From: Limosilactobacillus sp.
GTDB taxonomy: Bacteria; Bacillota; Bacilli; Lactobacillales; Lactobacillaceae
Length of the DNA stretch: 64,000 nt
Direction of reading: 5' to 3'
Assembly (NCBI RefSeq): GCF_022482365.1
Contig: NZ_JAKVPE010000001.1
Coordinates: 1,674,001 to 1,738,000, forward strand
The notes under the pieces are model-generated. The model worked only from the letters and a program-made list of their open reading frames with translations. It ran no database searches and was not told the origin of the DNA. Shown in pieces: positions 42,831 through 46,658 of this stretch. The position numbers and the translations under genes are program-made. Positions within the stretch are counted from its first letter, which is position 1. Each line of letters opens with the position of its first letter.

Positions 42831-43217
42831 ATTAACACAGAGCGGCTACTGAACAGTAATTATAAATGGCCTAAAAATGGGTATTTCGTTAAGAAACATG
42901 GCAGTAGTGACGAAATTGTCACGCCATTTGTGGATAGTATCAATGACAAAATCTCCATCTATGTTGACCGATTACCTGATGGGAAAATTCTCTTAAACGA
43001 TGACGGGTATACGCTAAATAATTTAGAAATGTTGGGTATTGCCTGGACCTCATCAAAAAAAGAATTACTCGATGAGGTTTGCCAACGCTTTAAGCTTAAG
43101 ATCATTGAAGAAGAAACTTTAGCAATTCAGGGTAATAAAAATGAATTCTCATTAATGAAAGATCGGCTTATTTCGGCAATTTTGCAGATAAATGAGCTTG
43201 CTTTTACGCAGCATTGA
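42831..43217 (+). CDS. DUF1828-like protein with an apparent ATT start
   Basis: The frame contains the DUF1828 pattern (ITPFVDSINDKISIYVDRL-like VTPFVDSINDKISIYVDRLP, then LNDDGYTLNNLEMLGI). GGAGG at 42818-42822 is followed 8 bases later by ATT 42831, with no ATG, GTG or TTG nearby. From ATT the protein is 128 residues; the first canonical start, GTG 42930, would remove 33 residues including part of the conserved region and has no ribosome site. Either ATT is used, or a former ATG has mutated. AT-rich and probably acquired; function unknown. The DUF1829 partner domain often fused to it is absent. Confidence 0.6.
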   Translation: MNTERLLNSNYKWPKNGYFVKKHGSSDEIVTPFVDSINDKISIYVDRLPDGKILLNDDGYTLNNLEMLGIAWTSSKKELLDEVCQRFKLKIIEEETLAIQGNKNEFSLMKDRLISAILQINELAFTQH

Positions 43218-43238
43218 TTGTCAGAAAAATATTAATCC

Positions 43239-43267
43239 TTGACAGCTTACTTTTAATCAGCTATGAT
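43239..43267 (+). promoter_or_regulatory. Promoter of the transsulfuration-luxS operon
   Basis: TTGACA (43239-43244), 17-bp spacer, TATGAT (43262-43267). The predicted start is near 43275, only about 20 bases before the leader-peptide ATG. Confidence 0.8.
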
Positions 43268-43296
43268 GATTGCAAACTTGAGAAGGGAAATTTGCC

Positions 43297-43389
43297 ATGC
43301 TGAACAATTTATTTGTTAACGCAAATACTTGTTGTTGTGAATCGCGTCTAATGCGGTCCACAATTTTGGCGTCCTCATTTTTAAGTTAA
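43297..43389 (+). CDS. Cysteine-rich leader peptide, 30 aa
   Basis: ATG 43297 with GAAGGG 9 bases upstream, stop TAA 43387. The peptide begins MLNNLFVNANTCCCESRLMR and ends in LSS-type hydrophobic residues (ILASSFLS). Codons 12-14 are three consecutive TGT (43330-43338). It lies between a consensus promoter and an intrinsic terminator ahead of cysteine-biosynthesis genes, so the run of Cys codons is likely a ribosome-stalling sensor of Cys-tRNA charging. Confidence 0.75.
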   Translation: MLNNLFVNANTCCCESRLMRSTILASSFLS

Positions 43390-43467
43390 AAATGAACTAG
43401 TTCAAATTAAAGTGAAACCCATTAGGCGCAAATTCAAGGAAATCATTCCGTGAATTTGCGCCTTTTT
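43337..43467 (+). promoter_or_regulatory. Attenuator: antiterminator versus terminator before cysK
   Basis: The terminator is GGCGCAAATTCA (43425-43436) with TGAATTTGCGCC (43451-43462), a perfect 12-bp stem followed by TTTTTGTTTTT. A competing helix pairs TGAATcGCGTCTAATGcGGT (43337-43357, right after the Cys codons) with ACCCATTAGGCGCaaATTCA (43417-43436): about 18 pairs with small bulges, using the same upstream terminator arm. An additional hairpin TCATTTTT/AAAAATGA surrounds the leader stop codon. The two folds are mutually exclusive; which one a stalled ribosome favours needs a folding calculation. Confidence 0.75.
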
Positions 43468-43499
43468 GTTTTTAAATCTTGCAAAGAAGTGATTCAACC

Positions 43500-44414
43500 A
43501 TGCTTGTAACAGACACCTACCAGCTCATCGGCCACACGCCGTTGTTAAAACTAGCGATTGACGCGCCCAATCATGCCAACATCTACGCCAAGCTTGAGAT
43601 GTTCAACCCCGGCGGCAGTATCAAGGACCGCCTGGGGATGGCCCTGATCCAGCGCGGCCTGGCAGAGGGCAAAATCAACCCGGCGACGACGATCATCGAA
43701 CCGACGGCGGGCAACACCGGGATCGGGGTCGCCATTGCCGCCATCAAATACCACCTGAGGGTCAAACTGATCGTCCCGGAGAAATTCAGCTTTGAAAAGC
43801 AGACCCTGATGCGGGCCCTCGGCGCCGAGGTGATCAACACGCCGAGCGAGGACGGAATCCGCGGCGCCATCGACTACGCCAAGGACCTAGCGGCCAAGCT
43901 CGGCAACGCCTACGTCCCGTTGCAGTTCCAAAACCCCGCCAACCCGGACGTCTATCAACGGACGCTCGGCCCGGAGATCCTGGCCGACATGGACAACCAA
44001 CCGATCGCGGCCTTTGTCGCCGGGGCCGGCAGCGGCGGCACCTTCGCGGGAGCAGCCAAGGCCCTTCAGGCGGCCTATCCCGAGATCAAGAGCTACGTGG
44101 TGGAACCGGCGGGCTCAATCTTAAACGGCGGTCCGGAACACCCGCACCGCACCGAGGGGATCGGGGTCGAATTCGTCCCACCGTTCTTCAAGGGCCTGGA
44201 CATTACGGGCGTCAAGACGATCGAAGACGATGACGCCTTCTACTACGTCCGCTGGGCCGCCAAGAACCTGGCGCTCTTCATTGGCAGCTCGAGCGGGGCA
44301 GCACTGGCGGCCAGTCTGGAAGTGGCCAAGGACCTGCCGGCGGGCGCCAACATTGTGACGATTTTCCCCGACTCCAGCGAACGTTATCTGAGCGAAAACA
44401 TCTACGAAAAGTAA
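43500..44414 (+). CDS. cysK: Cysteine synthase / cystathionine beta-synthase-like PLP enzyme
   Basis: 304 residues from ATG 43500 (AAGAAGTGA upstream). PLP Lys42 in [23 protein letters not shown] (substrate loop), [15 protein letters not shown] (phosphate glycines) and [17 protein letters not shown]. It lacks the CBS regulatory domains. It forms Cys from O-acetylserine and sulfide, or cystathionine from homocysteine and serine; the neighbouring cystathionine lyase and luxS genes favour the second reaction. First gene after the Cys leader attenuator. Confidence 0.9.
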
Positions 44415-44436: not shown

Positions 44437-45582
44437 ATGACGAAGTTTAACACCCAATTGATTCACGGCGGCAACAGCGAAGACCCAGCAACCGGGGCGG
44501 TTTCAACCCCAATCTATCGTTCCTCAACCTTCCACCGGCACGTCCTCGGTGGCGAGCCTAAGTGGGAGTACTCGCGGACCGGCAACCCAACCCGGGCATC
44601 GCTGGAAAAGCTGATGGCCCAGCTGGAAGGCGGGGTGGCCGGATTCGCCTTTGCCTCTGGCTCTGCCGCCATCCACGCGGTCTTCTCCCTCTACTCCCAG
44701 GGTGACCACTTCATCGTCGGCAAGGATGTCTACGGGGGCACCTTCCGCCTGATCAACAAGGTCTTGAAGCGCTTTGGGATGGAGTTCACCGTCGTCAACA
44801 CCCGCGACTTGCAGGCGGTTGAAGACGCCATCCAGGGCAACACGGTCGCCATCTACTTCGAGACGCCGACGAATCCGCTCCTTCAAATTACGGACATCGA
44901 AGCGATTGCCAAGATCGCCAAGAAGCACGGCATCAAGACGATTATTGACAACACCTTCGCCACGCCGTACAACCAGCGGCCGCTGACCCTCGGCGCGGAC
45001 ATCGTCGTCCACTCCGCCACCAAGTACCTCGGCGGCCACAGTGACGTCGTGGCCGGGATTGCGGTGACGAACGACCAGGAGATTGCCGACCAGCTGGCCT
45101 TCCTGCAGAACTCGATCGGCAGCACCCTCGGCCCGGACGACAGTTGGCTCCTGCAGCGGGGGATCAAGACATTGGCGGCGCGAATGCGGGTGCACCAGGA
45201 AAATACCGACGCGGTGATTGACTTCCTCCAGGGTGACGACCACATCGCCAAGATCTACTACCCAGGACTGAAGAACTTCCCTGGTCACGACATCGCGGCC
45301 AAGCAGATGAGAAACTTCGGCGCGATGATCTCCTTTGAACTGCAGCCAGGACTGAGCGCCAAGAAGTTCGTCGAGAGCCTGCAGTTGATTGACCTGGCCG
45401 AGAGCCTGGGCGGGATCGAAAGCCTGATCGAGGTGCCGGCCGTCATGACCCACGGCTCGATTCCGCGGGAAATTCGGCTCAAGAATGGGATTGCCGACGA
45501 ACTGATCCGCCTGTCCGTCGGGATTGAGGACCCTGAGGACATCATCGCCGACCTCAATCAGGCCCTCGCCAAGTTGGACTAG
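44437..45582 (+). CDS. Cystathionine gamma-lyase/synthase family PLP enzyme
   Basis: 381 residues from ATG 44437 (AGAGAGG upstream). YSRTGNPTRASLE, GFAFASGSAAIHA, DNTFATPYNQRP, PLP Lys196 in HSATKYLGGHSD, and EVPAVMTHGSIP near the end. As gamma-lyase it would split cystathionine to cysteine, 2-oxobutyrate and ammonia, completing reverse transsulfuration. A gamma-synthase (MetB) role cannot be excluded from sequence. Confidence 0.9.
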   Translation: MTKFNTQLIHGGNSEDPATGAVSTPIYRSSTFHRHVLGGEPKWEYSRTGNPTRASLEKLMAQLEGGVAGFAFASGSAAIHAVFSLYSQGDHFIVGKDVYGGTFRLINKVLKRFGMEFTVVNTRDLQAVEDAIQGNTVAIYFETPTNPLLQITDIEAIAKIAKKHGIKTIIDNTFATPYNQRPLTLGADIVVHSATKYLGGHSDVVAGIAVTNDQEIADQLAFLQNSIGSTLGPDDSWLLQRGIKTLAARMRVHQENTDAVIDFLQGDDHIAKIYYPGLKNFPGHDIAAKQMRNFGAMISFELQPGLSAKKFVESLQLIDLAESLGGIESLIEVPAVMTHGSIPREIRLKNGIADELIRLSVGIEDPEDIIADLNQALAKLD

Positions 45583-45731
45583 GGGTAAGACGATGAATTT
45601 TCTCCAAGCCCTTGAGTTCAGCCATCTGGATCGCCAGCCACCCGGTCCGCGCAACTCCTGGTGGCAAAGACTGCTGCGGACGGTCGCAGGCAAAGTCAAA
45701 GCGTGTAATAAACGGAAAGGAATCCTAGATT

Positions 45732-46208
45732 ATGGCAAAAGTAGAAAGTTTTACATTGGATCACACGAAGGTTAAGGCCCCCTATGTCCGCCTGATTACG
45801 GTTGAGGAGGGGCAGCGAGGCGACAAGATCAGCAACTACGATCTTCGCCTCGTCCAGCCCAATACGAATGCGATCCCGACCGCGGGCCTACACACGATTG
45901 AGCACCTCCTGGCGGGCCTGCTGCGGGATCGCTTGACCGGCGTGATCGACTGTTCGCCCTTTGGCTGCCGGACCGGCTTCCACTTGATCACCTGGGGCGA
46001 GCACTCCACGACCGAGGTCGCCAAGGCACTCAAGTCTTCGTTGGAGGAGATCGCCTACGAGACCAAGTGGGAGGACGTTCAGGGGACGACCATCGAATCC
46101 TGCGGGAACTACCGCGACCACTCGCTCTTCTCCGCCAAGGAATGGTCGAAGAAGATCCTGAGTGAGGGGATTTCGGATAAGCCGTTCGAGCGCCACGTCG
46201 TTGATTAA
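45732..46208 (+). CDS. luxS: S-ribosylhomocysteine lyase
   Basis: 158 residues. Zinc ligands H54 and H58 in HTIEH with E57, and C124 in [10 protein letters not shown]; catalytic Cys79 in FGCRTGFH. It cleaves S-ribosylhomocysteine to homocysteine and DPD (the AI-2 precursor). Together with the two upstream enzymes it recycles the methionine/SAM sulfur into cysteine. AAAGGAA lies before ATG; a 150-bp spacer separates it from the lyase gene, with no terminator visible in it. Confidence 0.95.
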
Positions 46209-46355: not shown

Positions 46356-46658
46356 AATCAATTCAAGCAAAACAAAGACGTTGACCGAGAATGGATGGTC
46401 CGCTCCGTTGCAGAGAGCCGGTGGTTGGTGAGAACCGGCAGAAGAGCGAACCCTTCCTAATCACTCGTGAGTCGTATGTCGAACGTGATTTTCTAGTAGA
46501 ACGTACTGGTAGCACCCATTATCGTGCCGGCTAATTGCCACGAATTGTGACTGTTGGTTGAGGCGGCATTCTGTATGCCGTAAAGAAAGGTGGTACCACG
46601 CACTCAGCGTCCTTTTTAATTCCCCAAGCGGGAGTTAGAAAGGACGCTTTTTTTAGCA
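46356..46658 (+). promoter_or_regulatory. T-box riboswitch controlling the hydratase-hicD operon, probably isoleucine
   Basis: T-box sequence AAGGTGGTACCACG at 46587-46600, distal Stem I with AGAGAG, GCCGGT/ACCGGC and the TTGGTG loop, and a terminator GCGTCCTTT (46608-46616)/AAAGGACGC (46639-46647) followed by seven T. By the same geometry as the trp leader (codon, A, lower helix), the best specifier is ATC at 46460-46462, just before A-CTCG, which pairs with CGAG. That would be isoleucine; the assignment is tentative, since the loop could be drawn with other codons. Confidence 0.85.

Follow-up and report, generated by a model that had tools for sequence, protein, structure and literature searches.

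The mccA/cysK-type operon of Limosilactobacillus sp. lies behind a leader which we regard, with high confidence, as a ribosome-mediated transcription attenuator that responds to cysteine via the charging of Cys-tRNA. Translation of the leader very probably decides whether the downstream genes are switched on. A short open reading frame (ORF) with a run of Cys codons, three predicted helices, their conservation, compensatory changes in their pairs and the repeated placement of the element before putative genes of cysteine acquisition can be read from the sequence; what we infer is the stalling of the ribosome, the role of Cys-tRNA as its signal and the kinetics of the switch.

Anatomy of the leader and the genes behind it

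The features upstream of and within the operon are compiled in Table 1 in coordinates of the window, i.e. the whole stretch of 64,000 nucleotides that was analysed. A preliminary description of this DNA had listed a consensus promoter, a 30-codon ORF with a ribosome site and three adjacent TGT codons, and a 12-bp terminator with a T-tract, all of which were borne out by the sequence. The encoded leader peptide is MLNNLFVNANTCCCESRLMRSTILASSFLS. A competing helix of about 18 pairs had also been described; it is real and takes the 5' arm of the terminator, but comprises 14-15 pairs, namely 43344-43353 with 43420-43429, 43339-43342 with 43432-43435 and perhaps 43355 with 43418. While promoter, ORF, terminator and competing helix had thus been recognized, a third helix, hairpin 1:2, had been missed. 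This hairpin has its foot in the Cys codons and ties up the antiterminator strand, and it would be opened by a ribosome located on these codons. In relatives its two outermost pairs and the pair 43341-43357 are not well conserved. Segment 2 is common to hairpin 1:2 and antiterminator 2:3, and segment 3 to antiterminator 2:3 and terminator 3:4, which is the classical attenuator layout.

Table 1. Features of the leader and of the genes behind it (window coordinates)
Feature	Position	Strand	Basis
Sigma-70-type promoter TTGACA-N17-TATGAT	43239..43267	+	11/12 consensus matches; direct reading
Shine-Dalgarno-like AAGGGA ahead of leader ORF	43283..43288	+	sequence
Leader peptide ORF, 30 aa + stop (ATG 43297, TAA 43389)	43297..43389	+	sequence; conserved in relatives
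Three consecutive Cys codons TGT TGT TGT, proposed sensor	43330..43338	+	sequence; relatives use TGT and TGC
Hairpin 1:2 (43335-43345 with 43353-43363)	43335..43363	+	MFE fold; compensatory changes
Antiterminator helix 2:3, 5' strand	43339..43355	+	pairing and covariation
Antiterminator helix 2:3, 3' strand, overlapping terminator 5' arm	43418..43435	+	pairing and covariation
Intrinsic terminator 3:4 (43424-43435 with 43452-43463) and T-tract	43424..43467	+	fold; compensatory changes
mccA/cysK-type gene, PALP family, cystathionine beta-synthase or cysteine synthase like	43500..44414	+	PF00291
Cystathionine gamma-lyase/beta-lyase family gene (mccB-like)	44437..45582	+	PF01053
luxS	45732..46208	+	PF02664; above NCBIfam cut-off

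The MFE fold of the window leader contains hairpin 1:2 (within 43333-43365) and terminator 3:4, the latter consisting of 12 pairs followed by TTTTT and situated between the leader ORF and the ATG of mccA at 43500. A simple terminator scan with a loop limit of 8 did not list terminator 3:4, because its loop of 16 exceeds this limit. For the 211-nt leader a folding energy of -62 kcal/mol was obtained, compared to -40.3 (sd 4.1) in 200 shuffles (z -5.3). Short ORFs of 14-45 codons with distinct stops were counted on both strands of the window (n=1080): CCC occurs in three of them, CC together with an ATG and a Shine-Dalgarno match in five, and CCC together with both in one, which is the leader ORF. 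Cys accounts for 20 of 2636 residues in nine neighbouring genes. The conservation of the leader across genera, described below, makes a chance origin untenable.

The product of the mccA/cysK-type gene scores below the curated NCBIfam cut-offs of the cysK and cystathionine beta-synthase models, and the lyase below the cut-off in the NCBIfam models shown. Therefore the two genes are called mccA-like and mccB-like here, following the names used in Bacillus. luxS is possibly the third gene of the predicted transcription unit; no terminator site was found on the + strand at 45583-45731 by the simple scan, which also misses long-loop terminators. In a tally of 98 operons (97 loci extending at most about 4 kb past mccA, and the window), luxS was seen in five, namely the window, L149, L153, L157 and L161. 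It follows without a cysE in between in the window only, while in the other four it comes after cysE; in 59 of the 98 operons the lyase is followed by cysE, and luxS is not within reach. The location of luxS behind this leader is unusual.

Conservation of the leader peptide and of the RNA pairing

mccA was found in 105 of 397 Lactobacillaceae genomes, representing 15 of 40 genera. A first set of 52 Lactobacillaceae mccA loci comprised 20 from a search of the genus and 32 named ones, some of them from the same genome, and an upstream ORF with a Cys run was present in 49. Among the exceptions, L058 has 115 nt of upstream sequence only, L008 retains both leader and terminator, behind an intron-like insertion, and in L009 another ORF ends 3 nt before mccA codon 2, with no leader within the locus examined. 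Named genera with the leader include Limosilactobacillus, Paucilactobacillus, Oenococcus, Loigolactobacillus, Companilactobacillus, Lentilactobacillus, Secundilactobacillus, Lactiplantibacillus, Periweissella, Leuconostoc and Ligilactobacillus. The search for Cys-codon ORFs before mccA-type genes of the Lactobacillaceae, which the preliminary description had proposed, was successful in 96 of the 97 loci of a second set, which was drawn from the 105 genomes with mccA (loose rule; some genomes in common with the first set), the exception L185 having 115 nt upstream only. By the same rule, a background of 9/48 was obtained for mccA loci of Bacillales and other groups and of 1/10 for paralogous cysK loci of the genus. 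A stricter rule, which demands an ATG or GTG start, a Shine-Dalgarno sequence and 20-45 aa, retained 92/97 and 49/52 Lactobacillaceae loci, as opposed to 1/48 in the other groups and 0/10 paralogous cysK loci. The bare pattern CC or CxC is present in some short ORF at 14 of the 48 mccA loci outside the Lactobacillaceae, and the Cys ORFs at these loci (14 by the bare pattern, 9 by the loose and 1 by the strict rule) were taken as background. Models R1 and R2, both containing the Cys codons as sequence columns, detected no leader with a Cys peptide at these 48 loci; L063 (R1, E 5e-4), the sole hit in the 600 nt before mccA and on its strand, was rejected, as it has no Cys peptide.

Two broad classes of leader peptide were distinguished, CCC..RLMR and, with a longer spacer, CCC/CC RTTRFWRCSAC or CC STTRFRCCTAC. 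Among 105 unique leaders the Cys run has a length of three in 70 and of two in 35. TGT and TGC are used in these leaders, which had been picked for CC, in a ratio of 87/18 at position 1, 68/37 at position 2 and 66/4 at position 3. Eight of 149 loci were left out of this set (L008, L009, L058, L114, L119, L185, L191 and L195), although L114, L119, L191 and L195 do carry a Cys-run ORF by the loose rule. The terminator is replaced in three relatives (L002, L005 and L006).

A further model, R3, was built from the same 22 leaders but starts after the third Cys codon and has no Cys-codon columns. At E<=1e-6 it gave 39 hits in 26 of 47 genomes of the genus. The loci of 30 hits were read, 12 being mccA leaders used in R3 and 18 lying outside it; they all come from one genus and hence are not independent. 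At all 30, at least two Cys are encoded in the three codons directly before the hit, and an in-frame ATG accompanied by a Shine-Dalgarno match is likewise present. These observations bear on the possibility of a riboswitch leader (T-box, SAM riboswitch or an unknown class) that binds a metabolite or tRNA and in which the short ORF is incidental. A structured 5' leader with a terminator ahead of a sulfur operon would suit such an element, T-boxes and S-boxes play this role in related bacteria (PMC6004538), and a T-box match is present further downstream at 46372-46617. This match, however, is the only one to Rfam at gathering score within 30000-64000. The covariance models of the T-box (RF00230) and the SAM riboswitch gave no match at 43200-43520, and a permissive search of that interval yielded 14 hits, all under gathering scores and none of the T-box or SAM family. 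With Cys codons placed directly before hairpin 1:2 even when the model lacks those columns, we consider a riboswitch very unlikely.

Covariation of the helices had likewise been suggested as a check, and 1:2, 2:3 and 3:4 all show compensatory changes; the counts are inflated by relatedness, and the columns of 2:3 overlap those of 1:2 and 3:4. In the class A alignment (21 sequences), 88.2% of the cells of 1:2 and 3:4 are paired versus at most 47.4% in slid controls, with 32 both-side changes versus 10.4 in shuffles. For 2:3, 90.1% of the cells are paired versus at most 51.8% when slid, and the excess of both-side cells is modest (9 versus 3.5; reached by 10 of 500 shuffles). A larger alignment holds 73 distinct hits of R2, a model whose structure includes 1:2 and 3:4 only, 2:3 being absent. 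Here the ten core pairs of 2:3 are paired in 93.2% of the cells versus 26.8-60.0% when slid, both-side changes occur in 8 of the 10 pairs (reached by 15 of 500 shuffles), and 66 both-side cells were counted versus 18.9 in shuffles (reached by 0 of 500). For 1:2 and 3:4, the helices to which this alignment was fitted, 200 both-side cells were counted versus 51.3; one pair of 1:2 is unpaired in 41 of the 73 leaders. Class B leaders show the same 1:2 and 3:4 folds, with a both-side change in 10 of 24 predicted pairs. The three relatives with a replaced terminator and duplicate leaders were left out of alignments A1, A3 and A5; for A3 and A6, 5 nt were removed from the 3' end of L013, L020 is included in A3 and not in A1, L048 and L059 are included in A4 and not in A2, and A5 represents 74 chosen sources in 73 distinct rows.

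For 58 distinct pairs of segments 2 and 3, the mean pairing energy was -16.5 kcal/mol for own and -10.9 kcal/mol for swapped partners, which was equalled in 0 of 5000 permutations, while 14% of single swaps of segment 3 were at least as strong. A looser test on 41 leaders gave means of -20.5 (own) and -15.0 (swapped); in this test the own partner had no advantage over swapped or shuffled ones in some leaders (e.g. L004 and L011), and L043 was not better than shuffles. The predicted antiterminator 2:3 is exclusive with the terminator and is kept with compensatory changes. As the conservation check thus found both the Cys codons and the alternative helix kept in relatives, the attenuation reading of the preliminary description is supported.

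The pairing data also weigh on two other explanations. The palindrome of the terminator is conserved in sequence in the alignments and was labelled a 'palindromic regulatory motif' (Liu et al. 2012, cited in PMC6004538), as might be the case if it were mainly the operator of a regulatory protein. Its conserved 5' arm, however, is accounted for by having two pairing partners, the 3' arm of the palindrome and segment 2, compensatory changes being found in both pairings, and in the aligned leaders the palindrome ends in a T-tract and comes after the Cys-codon hairpin, so that we regard an operator as extremely improbable. The other explanation is an arrest peptide, in which the nascent chain would halt the ribosome on cysteine or another small molecule and not on uncharged tRNA. 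Residues past the Cys run are indeed conserved within classes (e.g. SRLMR, TTRFWR), but they are encoded by the segments that form 1:2 and 2:3 and are accounted for by RNA pairing, and the two classes differ in peptide while keeping the pairing. Moreover, L234, a candidate copy, has a stop right after CCC and yet keeps the RNA parts. On account of the pairing and of L234 the arrest peptide was set aside, and hardly any likelihood is left to it.

Proposed mechanism and ribosome position

Ribosome-mediated attenuation of the trp/his type combines leader codons of the regulated amino acid with mutually exclusive 2:3 and 3:4 helices, stalling of the ribosome leading to antitermination. The predicted anatomy of the lactobacillar leader has those features of such attenuators that can be tested on a sequence. 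In the proposed mechanism, RNA polymerase would start just past the promoter and a ribosome would follow along the leader ORF. When Cys-tRNA is ample, the ribosome would be located over segment 2 (43344-43353), or would have finished with hairpin 1:2 formed; segment 3 (43420-43435) would then be free for segment 4, and transcription would end before mccA. When Cys-tRNA is scarce, the ribosome would stop with Cys codon 1 or 2 in the A-site, covering the foot of hairpin 1:2, and segment 2 would stay free. Upon emergence of segment 3, the free segment 2 would pair with it and pre-empt the terminator, and mccA, the lyase gene and perhaps luxS would be transcribed.

Which ribosome position favours antitermination had been left unsettled in the preliminary description; it was computed here on the assumption that the footprint reaches 12 nt beyond the first base of the A-site codon. 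Under this assumption, the antiterminator strand stays free if the A-site is at Cys codon 1 or 2, but not if it is at codon 3 or beyond. At equilibrium, the full-length window leader terminates when free (0.99), and the probability of the antiterminator is 0.23, 0.85 and 0.16 with the ribosome at Cys1, Cys2 and Cys3, respectively. Across 73 full-length leaders at equilibrium, the antiterminator exceeded 0.5 in 16 (Cys1), 13 (Cys2) and 6 (no ribosome), i.e. the terminator is mostly favoured even with a stalled ribosome. A cruder folding survey gave 9 clear shifts in the 74 foldable of 105 leaders. Before arm 4 is made, antitermination was favoured in 67 of the 73 leaders with the ribosome at Cys1, in 66 at Cys2 and in 0 at Cys3, in 0 with the ribosome over segment 2 and in 65 with no ribosome. 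Folding with ribosome-blocked segments, another check put forward in the preliminary description, hence produced a clear effect of ribosome position before arm 4 is made, a state in which the leader without a ribosome also allows antitermination, and a weak one at full-length equilibrium. Equilibrium folding was rejected as a proof of switching, since it did not carry over to most leaders, and this counts against the attenuation reading. As the antiterminator forms without a ribosome before arm 4, termination has to depend either on a ribosome translating through segment 2 or on hairpin 1:2 being trapped kinetically; together with the weak shift at equilibrium this means that the switch must be kinetic. 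The conserved hairpin 1:2 suggests that untranslated leaders terminate, whereas the energies alone do not.

Further copies and relation to known systems

The genome containing the window has a size of 2.34 Mb. At E<=0.001, R2 identified two sites in it, the mccA leader and a second copy at 1930208-1930342 (E 2.5e-21) with the leader peptide MFNKPFVNASVCCCGSRLMRPMFWRAHF. This copy precedes genes for a permease, an ATPase and a family-3 binding protein; the best NCBIfam models for this transporter are cystine ABC transporter ones, below cut-off. Within the Lactobacillaceae, R2 gave 35 sites at E<=1e-6 that have no mccA match behind them on the same contig; one of these (at a contig edge, G363) may be the leader missing from L185. 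All 32 of these sites that were examined have a C-C or C-x-C ORF, and they are followed by a transporter (8), a lyase and then a transporter (7), a lyase (15) or a MetA-like gene and then CysK (2); family models were run on the window lyase, the L209 transporter, L218 and L242, and other genes were judged by length and N-terminal sequence. Since the L. paracasei gene with the annotation metA is stated to code for a serine acetyltransferase (PMC6004538), MetA-like and CysK would form a cysteine pathway. R1 added lyases behind CFC or CC leaders (L212-L217, L223) and OppA-like lipoproteins behind CCCC leaders (L218, L220, L221 with two in tandem, and L222); in L219, grouped with the CCCC leaders L218-L222, the sequence ends before a gene. 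Among weak R2 hits (E 1e-6 to 1e-3), L258 (CPC, transporter) and L265 (CC, OppA-like by eye) look real, and L259-L264, L266-L268 and the second site of L239 were not judged real. Between 1e-7 and 1e-4, R1 yielded sites that lack a Cys ORF (L227, L228, L278-L282 and L284), and weak R1 hits were therefore not counted. By these assignments, the genes downstream of the leaders would serve cysteine, the amino acid of the putative control codons.

Among 345 Lactobacillales genomes, R1 matched seven genomes of another family at E<=1e-5. Six of these belong to one genus (5e-19 to 1.3e-14) and have a CC leader before genes that are mccA-, lyase- and cysE-like by eye; the seventh, from another genus (5.7e-6), has no Cys ORF. 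R2 gave no hit outside the Lactobacillaceae in the 345 genomes of the order. mccA-type genes are located on 33 plasmid records, 32 of them from Lacticaseibacillus, and the element was present on 3/3 plasmids checked, the L. fermentum one being weak with R1 and yet encoding CCC. The cysteine gene cluster has been called highly mobile (PMC6200037). On balance, we lean towards the view that the attenuator is a main cysteine sensor of the Lactobacillaceae: one RNA family with at least two structural classes, which would govern a regulon of cysteine synthesis from homocysteine, cystathionine lyase, cystine import, MetA-like/CysK and an OppA-type importer, which is found on plasmid-borne operons, reaches a second family of the Lactobacillales and takes the role of the T-boxes or regulatory proteins used elsewhere.

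In L. paracasei FAM18149, expression of cysK2-ctl1-cysE2 was described to be higher by a log2 of about 3 in cysteine-deficient than in methionine-deficient medium (PMC6004538), which is a comparison of two starvation media; repression by cysteine had been found earlier (Bogicevic et al. 2012b, as cited in PMC6004538). The operon has excess 5'-UTR reads and no T-box, and its authors suggest premature termination and an antisense RNA, the available text of their report naming no sensor (PMC6004538). A FAM18149 plasmid carries a cysteine synthase-lyase-serine acetyltransferase operon behind a CCC leader ORF and the palindrome AAGGGCGCGAAA...TTTCGCGCCCTT (R1, 144 bits). Because strain and gene order agree, we take this operon to be the published cysK2-ctl1-cysE2. 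The motif AAAGGGCGCGAA-N(11-18)-TTCGCGCCTTTT was reported before lactobacillar cystathionine synthase/lyase genes (Liu et al. 2012, as cited in PMC6004538). In class B members terminator 3:4 corresponds to this motif, and FAM18149 has the same palindrome, but, as far as the citing report relates, neither a leader peptide nor an antiterminator or sensor was described along with the motif or possible terminator (PMC6004538). The preliminary claim that the element is undescribed in lactobacilli consequently holds in part: the terminator palindrome is already in print as an unexplained regulatory motif, while no description of a Cys leader-peptide attenuator in lactobacilli was found in the literature searched, which covers few subscription journals.

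Cysteine T-boxes sense uncharged tRNA-Cys by direct binding, without a leader peptide, and control cysteine genes by antitermination. The proposed attenuator would share with them uncharged tRNA-Cys as the signal and cysteine genes as targets, but its leader has no T-box match. A cysteine T-box is present in FAM18149 before a transporter (PMC6004538). Ribosome-mediated attenuation has been shown in a Bacillota species for Rli60 upstream of Listeria ilv-leu (PMC5864092). Our leader resembles Rli60 and the trp/his type in having an ORF with codons of the regulated amino acid and exclusive 2:3 and 3:4 helices; it differs in the amino acid, cysteine, in its Lactobacillaceae host and in being known from sequence. 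Histidine leader peptides have been predicted before hisS paralogues of bacilli (PMC2965389) and are likewise predicted Firmicutes attenuators in place of T-boxes, but for histidine and other genes. The uORFC-8-2 motif upstream of cysS in Rhodobacterales, with predicted Cys-tRNA attenuation (PMC8632094), is similar by its description in that tandem Cys codons in a uORF, a first stem containing them and a 3' intrinsic terminator are present, whereas the phylum is another and the target is cysteinyl-tRNA synthetase. Cys-codon leaders have further been reported for cys operons of mycobacteria and Propionibacterium acnes and for cbs of Bifidobacterium longum (PMC1262725). These also are uORFs with a Cys-codon run before cysteine genes; for the mycobacterial ones no conserved terminator hairpin was found and Rho is suggested in that report, in which the Cys codons are placed near the stop, whereas the lactobacillar leader has a clear terminator and antiterminator and its Cys codons in mid-ORF.

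The kind of attenuator itself is thus known, and the novelty lies in its breadth in lactobacilli and in a likely sensor for a reported operon. For the L. paracasei operon, with a reported cysteine response and suspected premature termination but no mechanism, a likely sensor is supplied, and the orphan palindromic motif is explained as the terminator of the proposed attenuator. The transporters behind the leader become candidate importers of cysteine/cystine (or cysteine peptides), and the genes behind it bear on sulfur flavour in cheese. Taken together, these results suggest that classical leader-peptide attenuation forms a widespread cysteine regulon in lactobacilli, where T-boxes would be expected.

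Leaders outside Lactobacillaceae and before transporter-type genes

The Cys-codon element was also found in loci L272-L277, which belong to a family other than Lactobacillaceae (family f3, genus g83); a CC leader lies there upstream of mccA-, lyase- and cysE-like genes. In locus L221 (G353:C6), two OppA-like lipoprotein genes stand side by side, each preceded by a putative CCCC leader attenuator of its own. CC is replaced by C-x-C (CLC, CPC) in the transporter leaders of L253, L254, L257 and L258.

A T-box leader downstream in the window

A T-box leader precedes two further genes. A Pfam search with the first (threshold 0.001) returned no match; the second belongs to the lactate/malate dehydrogenase family.

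Positions of the T-box leader, the genes behind it and the leader of relative L234
Feature	Location	Match
T-box leader	window 46372-46617	RF00230, 100 bits
First gene	window 46824	
Second gene	window 47634	
L234 leader	L234 209-341	

Rearranged leaders and the peptide beyond the Cys run

In L208 (G037), an insertion of ~1.9 kb resembling a group II intron separates the leader terminator from mccA immediately 3' of the terminator T-tract, and terminator and leader are both intact upstream of it. An unrelated hairpin replaces the terminator body in L002, L005 and L006, where the Cys codons and the antiterminator strand are retained and the leader-to-mccA distance is ~140 nt greater.

Alignments A2/A4 of the longer-spacer class B leaders show conserved Cys codons at the C-terminus of the peptide (RCSAC, RCCTAC) and a conserved stretch, GGCCTGTTAAGCATTGACTTTT, in the region of the stop codon. 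The L234 leader carries a stop codon immediately 3' of CCC and retains the downstream RNA helices, and this early stop offers a natural test of whether residues after CCC matter.
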